From the NCBI RefSeq assembly GCF_017304635.1, contig NZ_JAFKMA010000002.1, positions 186,001 through 250,000 of the forward strand: a stretch of DNA of 64,000 nt, read 5' to 3'. Position numbers and translations under genes: made by a program. Below are positions 44,529 to 49,410 of this stretch, one piece after another. Under the pieces are notes generated by a model, which was not told the origin of the DNA, ran no database searches, and was given only the letters and a program-made list of their open reading frames with translations. The DNA comes from Sphingomonas sp. (lineage in GTDB: Bacteria > Pseudomonadota > Alphaproteobacteria > Sphingomonadales > Sphingomonadaceae). Positions within the stretch are counted from its first letter, which is position 1. Every line of letters starts with the position of its first letter.

Positions 44529-44551
44529 CGGCGGGGGCACTCTCGTTGCCG

Positions 44552-44632
44552 TTCTCCTGCGAAAGCAGGAGCCCAGGGTTACGGGCGGCGTCGCCTGCCG
44601 CTCTGGGTTCCTGCTTTCGCAGGAACACGGGT
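44552..44632. repeat. Palindromic intergenic repeat, family C copy 2
   Basis: Arms TTCTCCTGCGAAAGCAGGAG and TTCCTGCTTTCGCAGGAA with an inner CCCAGGGTTAC as in copy 1 (11626-11709). Confidence 0.85.
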
Positions 44633-44651
44633 AAAGGGAGCGTCGAGTCTT

Positions 44652-44760
44652 TCTCCCCACCCCGGCGGACGCCGGGGTCCAGTCGGGAGACGATCGTGAA
44701 ATGCGTTGCGCCTTGGTACCACCGCCATTCCGACTGGGCCCCGGCGTTCGCCGGGGAGGG
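44652..44760. repeat. Large palindromic intergenic repeat, family A copy 2
   Basis: Imperfect arms built on CCCCGGCGGACGCCGGGGTC and GGCCCCGGCGTTCGCCGGGG. The spacer segment GACGATCGTGAAATGCGTTG is nearly the same as in copy 1 (GACGATCGTGATATGCGTTG). It sits 19 bp after family C copy 2. Confidence 0.9.
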
Positions 44761-44999
44761 ACTATGGGGAAAGCTGGTCGGCGAAAGATAAATATGCTCC
44801 GCCGCAGCACGGAAAGCTGCTTGCGCGCACCCTCTATTCGCGACGTCCGGAAAACCCCCGGCCGACCCCGGCCAAGGCGAAAGAGAATCGTCGAAATCCC
44901 GGTGCATTACAAGTCTTGAAATGTCGGCCCGGGCGATTCACATTCCCCTCGTGTCCAACGCTGGGCACGGTGTTTCAACAAGCGAAAGGAGGTGATCCG

Positions 45000-45056
45000 A
45001 TGTCTCATGGTTCAGCAATGGGGTCGGTTCAGTTCGTTCGGGGGACGCGCCGCTAA
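45000..45056 (+). CDS. 18-codon mini-ORF behind an extended Shine-Dalgarno
   Basis: ATG at 45000, TAA at 45054-45056; peptide MSHGSAMGSVQFVRGTRR. The core GGAGG lies 7 nt upstream of the ATG and is part of the 13-nt match to the anti-SD. Basic C-terminus. Possibly a leader peptide or small effector. Confidence 0.6.
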   Translation: MSHGSAMGSVQFVRGTRR

Positions 45057-45223
45057 AAGTCCGCCGGATCGCCGCGGGAGGTATCCTCCTCCAAGCAACG
45101 CCGCGATCCACAGGAACGGGCAGCTCTGCTGCCCCGACCCGGATGGCGATTTCCGAAGGGAAATCGCAAGCGGTCCGCATGGTCCTCCGGGCTGGAGCTT
45201 CCGGCCGCTGACCATGTCAGGAG

Positions 45224-45266
45224 GTTGTCGGGGTGCCGAGAGGCCCCCGGCAGCCTCTTTTCATTT
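45224..45266 (+). terminator. Rho-independent terminator of the RNA unit
   Basis: GTTGTCGGGG / CCCCGGCAGC, a 10-bp stem (with G-U pairs), followed by CTCTTTTCATTT. Confidence 0.75.
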
Positions 45267-47938: not shown

Positions 47939-48075
47939 GGGGCGCCACCATGGCGTCGCCCGCGCGATTAGGGAAGCGGGAGGAGTGGGGGTGGGCTCGA
48001 ATGAGCGGTCGCGACGGTCGAACGAACGGCCGGTGGGCGAGAGAACGCGAAGATGGCGTTCCCCGTCTTTTTTGT

Positions 48076-48180
48076 CTCCCCGGCGAAGGCCGGGGTCCAG
48101 TCGCGAGACGCCGATCGGTGAGCGTATCGAGTCGTCACATCTGCCTTCCCGACTGGGCCCCGGCTTTCGCCGGGGTGGGA
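48076..48180. repeat. Large palindromic intergenic repeat, family A copy 3
   Basis: Arms CCCCGGCGAAGGCCGGGGTC and GGCCCCGGCTTTCGCCGGGG. The interior differs from copies 1 and 2. Confidence 0.9.
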
Positions 48181-48321
48181 ATGAAGGGGAGGGGGACGCT
48201 CGCCACCGCCGTTGCCTGGCATGCTTGGGAGGATGCAGCGAGCAGGAGCCGCTCCGGATCATCGCCACTGCGCACCCGACCGACACACCGCTTGGTAACG
48301 CCTGTCGGATAGAGCGGCGGT

Positions 48322-49410
48322 ATGAACAAGCCGATGGCCCTGACCGATTTCACCCGCCTGCCGCCGGTGGCGCGCGCGGCGGCGTTCGACGGGTTGCCGG
48401 CGCTGATCGATCCGGTCGCGGAAAACGGTCCGGCGAGCCACGCTTTCCTGCGCCGGCAATGGTTTGCGGCGGCGACGGCGGCCTACGGCCAGCGCGCACG
48501 GACATTGATCGTCGAACATTTCGGCGAGCCGGTGATCGCGCTGCCGTTCGCGCCGTTCGGGCCGACGCCGCTGCGGCTGGCGGCGGTACCCGGTTGTTAC
48601 TGGCCGTTTCGCGGCTTCCCGGCGGCGACGATCGCCGACGACCGTGCGTTCGACGTGCTTGCCGACGCGCTGGCGCACGAAGTCAACGGCTTGCGGATCG
48701 GCCCGGTTTATGACGGCGATCCGGCGGCGAGCGCGCTGATCGCGGCCGCGCGGCGGCGGGGCTGGGTCGCGATCGACCGCTTCGTCGCGGACAGCTTCCT
48801 GCTCGACATGGCGGCGGCGCGGACCGAGGGGCCGTTCCCGCGCGCCTCGACGCTGAAGAAGAACCGCTTCCACGAAAAGCATCTGGCGACGCACGGCGCG
48901 CTCGACTGGCGTTTTCTCACCGGCGCGGAGCTGGCGGAGGGCGGGTTCGACGCGATGGCGAGAATCGAGGAAAAGAGCTGGATCGCCGCGCGCACCGACG
49001 GTCGCGATGCCAAGTTCACGCGGACCGGACATGGCGCGTTCTGGCGGCAGGCGGCAACCGATCCGGTGATCGCGGCCCAGCTTTGGGCGGCGGTGCTGAC
49101 GATCGATGGCGAACCTGCGGCCTTCTCGTTCGACATCAATTGCGGCGCGGTGAAATACGCGATCGCCAACAGCTACGACCCGCGCGTCGCCAAGCATTCG
49201 CCCGGCAAATTGCTCTATTATCGCAACCTCGTCCGGGCGCAGGACGACGGCATCGCGACGGTCGATTGGGGCGCGGGCGACAGCGGCTACAAGCAGGTCA
49301 TCGGCGCGGAGAAGGGGCCGGCGATCCGCGACTGGCTGTTGCTGCGCCCGGGCATGGCGGCGCTGGCGGGGCGGATGCTACGGGGCGTGTGGCGGCGGTC
49401 GGGGCAGTAG
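48322..49410 (+). CDS. BioF2-like GNAT-fold acyltransferase (FemAB-related)
   Basis: A 362-aa protein with two GNAT-like lobes typical of the BioF2-like/CelD group. The second lobe contains RIEEKSWIAARTDG and the conserved end TVDWGAGDSGYKQVIGA, and it has AAFSFDINCGAVKYAIANSYDP for the acyl-CoA pocket. Such proteins are linked to cell-envelope or polysaccharide modification. The start at 48322 (MNKPMAL) could instead be the ATG at 48334. Confidence 0.82.
   Translation: MNKPMALTDFTRLPPVARAAAFDGLPALIDPVAENGPASHAFLRRQWFAAATAAYGQRARTLIVEHFGEPVIALPFAPFGPTPLRLAAVPGCYWPFRGFPAATIADDRAFDVLADALAHEVNGLRIGPVYDGDPAASALIAAARRRGWVAIDRFVADSFLLDMAAARTEGPFPRASTLKKNRFHEKHLATHGALDWRFLTGAELAEGGFDAMARIEEKSWIAARTDGRDAKFTRTGHGAFWRQAATDPVIAAQLWAAVLTIDGEPAAFSFDINCGAVKYAIANSYDPRVAKHSPGKLLYYRNLVRAQDDGIATVDWGAGDSGYKQVIGAEKGPAIRDWLLLRPGMAALAGRMLRGVWRRSGQ

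Follow-up and report, generated by a model that had tools for sequence, protein, structure and literature searches.

Among described RNAs, the closest to the locus analysed here is Rfam family RF01867 (CC2171), and CC2171 was reportedly described by Landt in 2008 as an expressed small RNA in Caulobacter. Another point of comparison is provided by hok-type mRNAs, which undergo fold-back inhibition, the 3' end pairing back to the start of the coding region. In the accessible text of the papers concerned, RF01867 is listed among Mesorhizobium small RNA candidates as MH_s33, reads having been obtained for 34 of 35 candidates and only MH_s6 having none (PMC5596092), and it appears among families with one additional covarying base pair (PMC11701678). 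It is not named in the accessible portions of PMC5988900, PMC11005374, PMC12559287, PMC10117765 and PMC3927594. A literature search that left subscription papers mostly outside found no paper on the function or the open reading frame (ORF) of RF01867, and nothing to the point on sphingomonad small RNAs. Also relevant, as far as the accessible sections of the sources go, are two formerly predicted Caulobacter non-coding RNAs that are in fact translated (PMC4117421), and rnTrpL of Sinorhizobium, a leaderless attenuator RNA of trpE with a functional peptide, peTrpL (PMC10117765).

In the window, i.e. the whole 64,000-nt stretch of Sphingomonas sp. DNA that was analysed, sequence comparison shows positions 44951-45266 to constitute a stand-alone structured RNA gene of about 300 nt, with the following features:

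44916-44944, + strand: possible promoter, weak, assigned by eye (TTGAAA at 44916-44921, 17 nt, CACATT at 44939-44944)
44951-44968, + strand: 5' UTR hairpin GTGTCCA-ACGC-TGGGCAC (computed fold)
44976-44984, + strand: leader CAACAAGCG, of the CAACAA type recurring class-wide
44984-44998, + strand: GAAAGGAGGTGATCC, 15 nt complementary to the 16S rRNA 3' tail and spaced from the ATG as a Shine-Dalgarno (SD) sequence would be (sequence match)
45000-45056, + strand: 18-codon ORF MSHGSAMGSVQFVRGTRR plus stop, its length kept and its peptide apparently not (ORF list and comparison)
45006-45016, + strand: predicted 5' arm of the closing stem P1, codons 3-6, CATGGT(T)CAGC (pairing comparison and fold)
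45076-45090, + strand: genus hairpin GGGAGG-TAT-CCTCCT, including a CCTCC named in an earlier note on this DNA (genus comparison)
45118-45134, + strand: perfect hairpin GGGCAGC-TCT-GCTGCCC (sequence and fold)
45146-45167, + strand: perfect hairpin GCGATTTCC-GAAG-GGAAATCGC (sequence and fold)
45178-45184, + strand: CATGGTC, second local partner for the P1 3' arm, found only in the genus among the sequences read (genus comparison and folds)
45190-45206, + strand: hairpin GGCTGGA-GCT-TCCGGCC (genus comparison and fold)
45207-45216, + strand: predicted P1 3' arm GCTGACCATG, immediately ahead of the terminator (pairing comparison and model alignment)
45219-45266, + strand: intrinsic terminator with T-rich tail, end of the RNA (sequence and class alignment)

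Genus sequences were gathered not with the conserved core but with a 431-nt query, and this query matched 98 of 101 genomes; 90 sequences were used and seven added later, and the last of the 98 genomes (L378) ends at a contig end ahead of the core, leaving 97 complete copies. A consensus scan of this stretch of the window found no promoter; clearer -10-like sequences, e.g. CCTATAGT and CATACT, occur in some class members. At the site of the 5' UTR hairpin, 88 of 89 genus sequences had a hairpin of at least five pairs, formed by 72 distinct pairs of arms, a count made without a chance control, and the transcript probably starts near 44951-44968. The several perfect hairpins and the closing terminator with its T-run, which the earlier note had described, are present as listed. 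Furthermore, the RNA stretch folds better than its shuffled versions (z = -5.4). A consensus scan for the terminator alone did no better than chance (1 found vs. 0.7 expected). Class alignment A1 comprises 49 of 70 sequences plus L131, a duplicate of L045, the 21 other sequences, 7 of them with a divergent core, having been excluded by eye; in it all 10 of 10 terminator pairs were changed on both sides, A1 pair counts leaning to the canonical type. A hairpin of at least five pairs ahead of the CAAC motif (the 45076-45090 site) was found by a strict search in 54 of 89 genus sequences, with 17 arm variants. Behind this TAT-loop hairpin, genus relatives keep a second TCAACG-type segment (AAGCAACG at 45093-45100 here) which resembles the CAACAA leader. 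Elsewhere in the window, at 44540-44760 and about 47968-48353, we noticed by eye the palindromes TCCTGCGAAAGCAGGA and CCCCGGCGnnCGCCGGGG, repeated between genes and apparently dispersed.

The earlier note had been unable to place the RNA in a known family and had proposed an Rfam search as a check. At the Rfam cut-offs this search gave no match in the window. With an open threshold the best match was RF01867, mostly over the 5' core, with 29.3 bits (E 2.2e-4 and 9.8e-5) against a gathering score of 75 bits, which the window RNA does not reach. There is thus no strong match, yet there is a kinship that places the RNA beside RF01867. The RF01867 cut-off was reached by 12 of 20 given loci, none of them among the 6 from the RNA's own genus and family; own-family loci score 27-69 bits. 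We also built a covariance model, R1, from 50 sequences, all outside the own family. Across the 64-kb window R1 returned a single match up to E 10, the full model aligning at 44971-45266 (37.3 bits, E 9.5e-9) and taking in both P1 and the terminator. Among 38 further loci from the own family and divergent class members, 37 had E < 1e-6, five of these matches spanning only 43-67 nt of the 5' core. The own-family loci L088-L090, which possess a CATTGTC/GACAATG-like stem, reach 73-94 bits under R1 and 66-69 bits under Rfam.

Closer comparison with CC2171 reveals the same 5' core, CAACAA..GAAAGGAGGUGAUCC.RUGUCUCAU, with its CAACAA leader; a closing stem corresponding to that between codons 3-5 and GACAAUG, which can form in the window RNA with other bases (CATGGTTCAGC/GCTGACCATG, where CC2171 has CATTGTC/GACAATG); and a terminator directly behind the 3' arm of this stem. 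Unlike CC2171, the window RNA is about 300 rather than 159 nt long, its ORF has 18 codons rather than mostly 21-28, it has additional hairpins, and its 3' arm can pair with a second segment. We regard it as almost certainly homologous to CC2171, and on these alignments it is best described as a divergent, enlarged branch of RF01867, not a member by Rfam's rule.

RNAs of this type were identified across the class. With up to two mismatches, AAAGGAGGTGATCCNRTGTCTCAT was found in 52 of 385 class genomes (reversed control 0), and in a phylum sample of 299 an exact shorter core occurred in 47 of the 86 own-class genomes and in none of the 213 others. Within the order, the core with one mismatch was present in 57 of 64 own-family genomes and in 0 of 83 of other families (reversed control 3 of 147). 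When named genomes were scanned for the canonical core, at least 120 loci were found, in Methylobacterium, Bosea, Microvirga, Brevundimonas, Roseiarcus, Rhodospirillales and others; among the matches listed, one metagenome-assembled genome (MAG) is labelled Ramlibacter, outside the class, none is labelled Sphingomonadaceae, and several are labelled only Alphaproteobacteria or Proteobacteria. Class loci share a recurring architecture of CAACAA leader, 16S complement, ORF, variable middle, GACAATGGAAGG-type segment and terminator. The constancy of the core outside the genus is no evidence in itself, because the search that retrieved these loci relied on that core; it did not use the P1 partner, ORF length or terminator. 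Class-wide, under strict filters and at E <= 0.001, R1 matched in 63 of 241 genomes, the window copy scoring 34.9 bits over 67 nt only, and the 178 genomes with no match indicate that the RNA is not universal. A canonical CC2171-type copy (up to two mismatches) was found in 41 of 151 genus genomes, the window's own genome having none, and two genomes (G895 and G898) carry two canonical copies each. Eleven canonical genus copies score 61.7-83.5 bits with Rfam, 2 of the 11 lying above the cut-off, and among the 23 that were read (L231-L253) the ORF has 24 codons in 21 and 23 codons in two. A phage collection searched with one canonical copy gave no match.

The feature that had first drawn attention to this locus was a 13-nt exact reverse complement of the 16S 3' end, which the earlier note called far longer than an ordinary SD. 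The match is even longer: the 13-mer, AAGGAGGTGATCC at 44986-44998, is the inner part of a 15-nt complement, GAAAGGAGGTGATCC, to the 16S 3' tail GGATCACCTCCTTTC(T). The 13-mer is the sole exact match in the window, where up to two mismatches give 2 matches against a chance mean of 0.86, and exact GAAAGGAGGTGATCC occurs once in the 3.18-Mb assembly, its six other matches having two mismatches and a reversed control pattern giving 1 match. In other lineages the complement extends to as many as 17 nt. A fragment of a 16S gene was considered and rejected, since the match is only 15 nt and is followed by an ORF. The genome's own 16S gene was not found in its 99.9% complete, 7-contig assembly with an rRNA model and 3'-end patterns; masking or withheld stretches are the likely reason, because a 3'-end pattern ending ahead of the tail likewise matched no more than 25 of 199 genomes in the family; in the class it matched 29 of 190. 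Read onward from this pattern, the tail GGATCACCTCCTTTC followed in 30 of 30 own-family loci and 25 of 30 class loci, the remaining five class loci differing from it by one or two bases. A pattern containing the tail itself matched 10 places in 9 of 96 genomes, which proves only that such tails exist.

The computed duplex of SD and 16S tail amounts to -30.6 kcal/mol, compared with a best value of -21.9 and a median of -12.2 over the 146 mechanical ORF starts of the window. Values range from -30.6 to -35.2 kcal/mol and reach -27.6 kcal/mol in canonical second copies. Among 18,278 28-nt stretches on both strands, the two best 16S duplexes sit at this site, with others within about 2 kcal/mol; duplex energy alone is therefore not unique, and the uninterrupted match is.

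Conservation continues from the SD into the ORF. All 90 genus sequences and the 7 added later share an identical 36-nt stretch from GCGAAAGG to codon 6, codons 1-6 being invariant (90 of 90), and the 18-codon ORF that the earlier note had placed behind the SD keeps exactly this length in all 97 complete genus copies (90 of 90 and 7 of 7). Its stop codon in the 90 sequences is TAA in 48, TGA in 32 and TAG in 10. Elsewhere the ORF usually has 21-28 codons, likewise with no codon-position bias. Codons 17-27 contain the first stop of frame 0 in 59 of 60 own-family sequences (12 and 23 of 60 in the other frames) and in 132 of 141 distinct sequences outside the own family (18 and 22 in the other frames); these sequences are related and do not represent independent trials, and the kind of stop codon changes while its place stays. 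The earlier note had stated that absence of conserved ORF or stems in related genomes would count against it; ORF length and core are kept, and P1 covaries class-wide, as described below.

The encoded peptide presents a different picture. Substitutions at codon positions 1, 2 and 3 of the genus ORF number 23/16/18, with 15 synonymous and 33 non-synonymous changes between nearest neighbours, and an earlier subset of 30 genus loci gave 8/12/4. Corresponding counts are 30/35/22 for own-family ORFs, 150/174/160 for ORFs outside the own family (94 synonymous, 172 not) and 48/57/44 for canonical second copies (19 synonymous, 55 not). Eighteen-codon windows of a control gene, uvrB by our reading of its translation and covered by the 10 of 30 loci that extend into it, gave 21/20/100 by the identical procedure (81 synonymous, 22 not), and a smaller control, a DUF3175-like gene at 4 of 30 loci, gave a three-window total of 8/11/30. 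The four ORF sets thus show no sign of purifying selection on amino acids, in contrast to the third-position excess of uvrB, within the limits set by short ORFs and nearest-neighbour pairs that are not fully independent. Synonymous changes made up 94 of the 266 single-base codon changes of the mixed set, a slight excess over the 27% expected. RNA constraint acts on the first codons and may extend to further ones, and such constraint on third positions could mask some peptide selection. Over 179 distinct peptides, the grand average of hydropathy (GRAVY) has a median of -0.2 and a highest value of 0.98, and no common chemistry was found. Taken together, these comparisons suggest that the openness and length of the ORF are kept while its amino acids drift. 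At L033, L036 and L316 (Azospirillum thermophilum, 1519-1695), we observed by eye the same SD and a similar start, followed by a signal-peptide-like ORF of 56-58 codons, which in Azospirillum is annotated as a hypothetical protein, as if the leader had been joined to a real small protein.

The earlier note had proposed a long-range pairing between CCTCCTCC (45085-45092) and the AAGGAGG of the SD. CCTCCTCC is present; this pairing is not conserved, at least 7 contiguous pairs of the middle region with the SD being possible in only 17 of 89 genus sequences, and CCTCCTCC is better read as an arm of the local hairpin with loop TAT. The idea of a long-range pairing holds in a different form: the conserved interaction is P1, in which ORF codons 3-6 (45006-45016) can pair with GCTGACCATG (45207-45216). 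From 220 loci, one had no stop within the stretch and 27 of the other 219 had no terminator by rule, and 188 distinct sequences entered the pairing test. Among own-family RNAs in which a terminator was called, 49 of 49 could pair over 7 nt (92% when 3' parts were dealt anew), as could 92% of 108 RNAs from the scan of named genomes (dealt anew, also 92%); the dealt control is equally high in these two sets because the P1 arms hardly vary there. The only informative set comprises 31 class sequences, in which 48% pair over 7 nt compared with 18% dealt anew. Sixteen sequences have other codons 3-5, and 10 of them pair by at least 6, a number reached in 1 of 500 shuffles (mean 3.96, sd 1.49). In A1, P1 is 96.2% paired and two of its seven pairs have changed on both sides, again with the lean of these counts to the canonical type. 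Together, these results show that P1 covaries across the class. Automatic folding of A1 returned only the terminator and a trivial SD hairpin, and not P1; no clear helix emerged when pairs were scanned for in the middle region, and we claim no internal helices for the class.

Within the genus, the 3' arm of P1 has two possible partners. Folds of the window RNA place the local pairing of 45178-45184 with 45210-45216 at -162.5 kcal/mol and P1 at -161.3 kcal/mol, a difference of 1.2, and a CATGGT lies within 50 nt upstream of the P1 3' arm in 87 of 89 genus sequences, one of the 90 having no 3' anchor by rule. The mean computed probability of P1 is 0.21 in the genus, 0.41 in the own family and 0.61-0.65 elsewhere, and the genus value argues against P1 dominating the fold of the naked RNA in the genus. 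On average the SD is only 32-46% unpaired in computed folds, so that an open SD is not secured by folding. As in hok-type mRNAs, the 3' end of the window RNA is predicted to pair back to the start of the ORF and could compete with translation; unlike theirs, the peptides of window-type RNAs are not hydrophobic (median GRAVY -0.2). A type I toxin mRNA was rejected on this peptide side only.

Several explanations were weighed for an RNA with these properties. That it serves as a cis-acting leader or attenuator of a downstream gene is very improbable. Its leader-peptide-like size and the terminator behind the ORF would suit such a role, as would one own-family branch in which a downstream ORF cluster is common to 22 of 30 loci. 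Upstream neighbours are common within the own family, one cluster of mechanical ORFs (wrong frames included) occurring at 56 of 60 loci. Class loci cover 1.5 kb on each side, and among the 25 largest ORF clusters listed none represents a neighbour common across the class, the largest outside the own family covering 18 of about 159 loci. In the genus several genes occur as the downstream neighbour, ClC among them, which supports the independence from the ClC gene asserted in the earlier note, and a leader of ClC or of another gene was rejected. A 14-locus cluster at Microvirga loci such as L115, on the opposite strand upstream, consists of a neighbour whose N-terminus reads like peptide chain release factor 3, which would be a translation gene, possibly there by chance. 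It also seems improbable that the RNA is an mRNA for a functional small peptide (MSHG.../MSHCH...) produced at very high level through the strong SD. Such a role would account for an ORF kept open, for first codons alike across the class and for a TWIVAS-like segment recurring in many lineages; it is opposed by the missing third-position excess in four data sets that is present in uvrB treated alike and by peptides that share no common chemistry (median GRAVY -0.2), and the TWIVAS-like stretch may itself be an RNA hairpin, an impression gained by eye only for a region in which the pair scan showed no clear helix. Compared with rnTrpL/peTrpL, which in the accessible text of PMC10117765 is likewise a small alphaproteobacterial RNA containing a very short ORF, of the dual-function or leader-derived type, the window RNA differs in its extreme SD, in the common downstream gene that was not found and in showing no detectable peptide constraint.

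An ordinary trans-acting small RNA, whose 5' core and 3' segment pair with target mRNAs (with Hfq) and whose SD and ORF are a by-product or a protection from decay, is a less probable but serious candidate. The CAACAA leader could presumably bind Hfq, the gene stands alone with its own terminator, and the family is filed as a small RNA in Rfam and, in the accessible part of PMC5596092, as a Mesorhizobium candidate with reads. However, an RNA that is not translated would need neither a 16S complement correctly spaced from a start codon nor a stop whose distance is kept while its codon changes. A pure ribosome decoy, i.e. an abundant RNA that ties up 30S subunits through its 15-17-nt duplex, for example in stationary phase, would exploit a computed duplex (-30.6 to -35.2 kcal/mol) stronger than those of all 146 ORF starts of the window, but would have no need for an ORF of fixed length or for a stem with the segment ahead of the terminator; we consider it rather unlikely. 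From the options of the earlier note, a dual-function or a ribosome-titrating RNA remain live, and a cis-acting leader is unlikely, as no class-wide downstream gene was found among the clusters listed.

The explanation that we favour, with somewhat less than even confidence, is that of a translation-gated or ribosome-sensing RNA in which translation is selected and the peptide is not. P1 starts 6 nt past the first base of the start codon, which is inside the usual initiation footprint. The strong SD would let 30S subunits bind and initiate despite first codons locked in P1; the initiating ribosome would have to melt P1, cross the folded ORF and leave at a fixed point. The RNA would thereby be either loaded with ribosomes or in its closed fold, and it might read out, and perhaps draw on, the available free 30S subunits or translation capacity. 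In the genus, where the P1 3' arm has its second well-kept partner at 45178-45184, the opened RNA could take a second fold of nearly equal computed energy. Candidate outputs may include titration of 30S subunits, RNA stability or exposure of a base-pairing site. Presumably, ribosomes initiate at this ORF, P1 and the initiation footprint exclude each other, and the cell makes use of this.

Extended to its relatives, this reading would describe an ancient alphaproteobacterial family in which the act of translation is conserved and the RNA serves as a reporter or buffer of free 30S subunits, its lock having become a two-partner switch in the genus, a possibility that we put forward only tentatively. 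RF01867 is at present carried as a non-coding small RNA; if the proposal is true, the family would provide a natural example in which to test regulation by nothing but ribosome traffic, with Caulobacter, Methylobacterium and Sphingomonas as tractable hosts for RNAs of its type, and would illustrate how such RNAs escape both protein annotation and the Rfam cut-offs.
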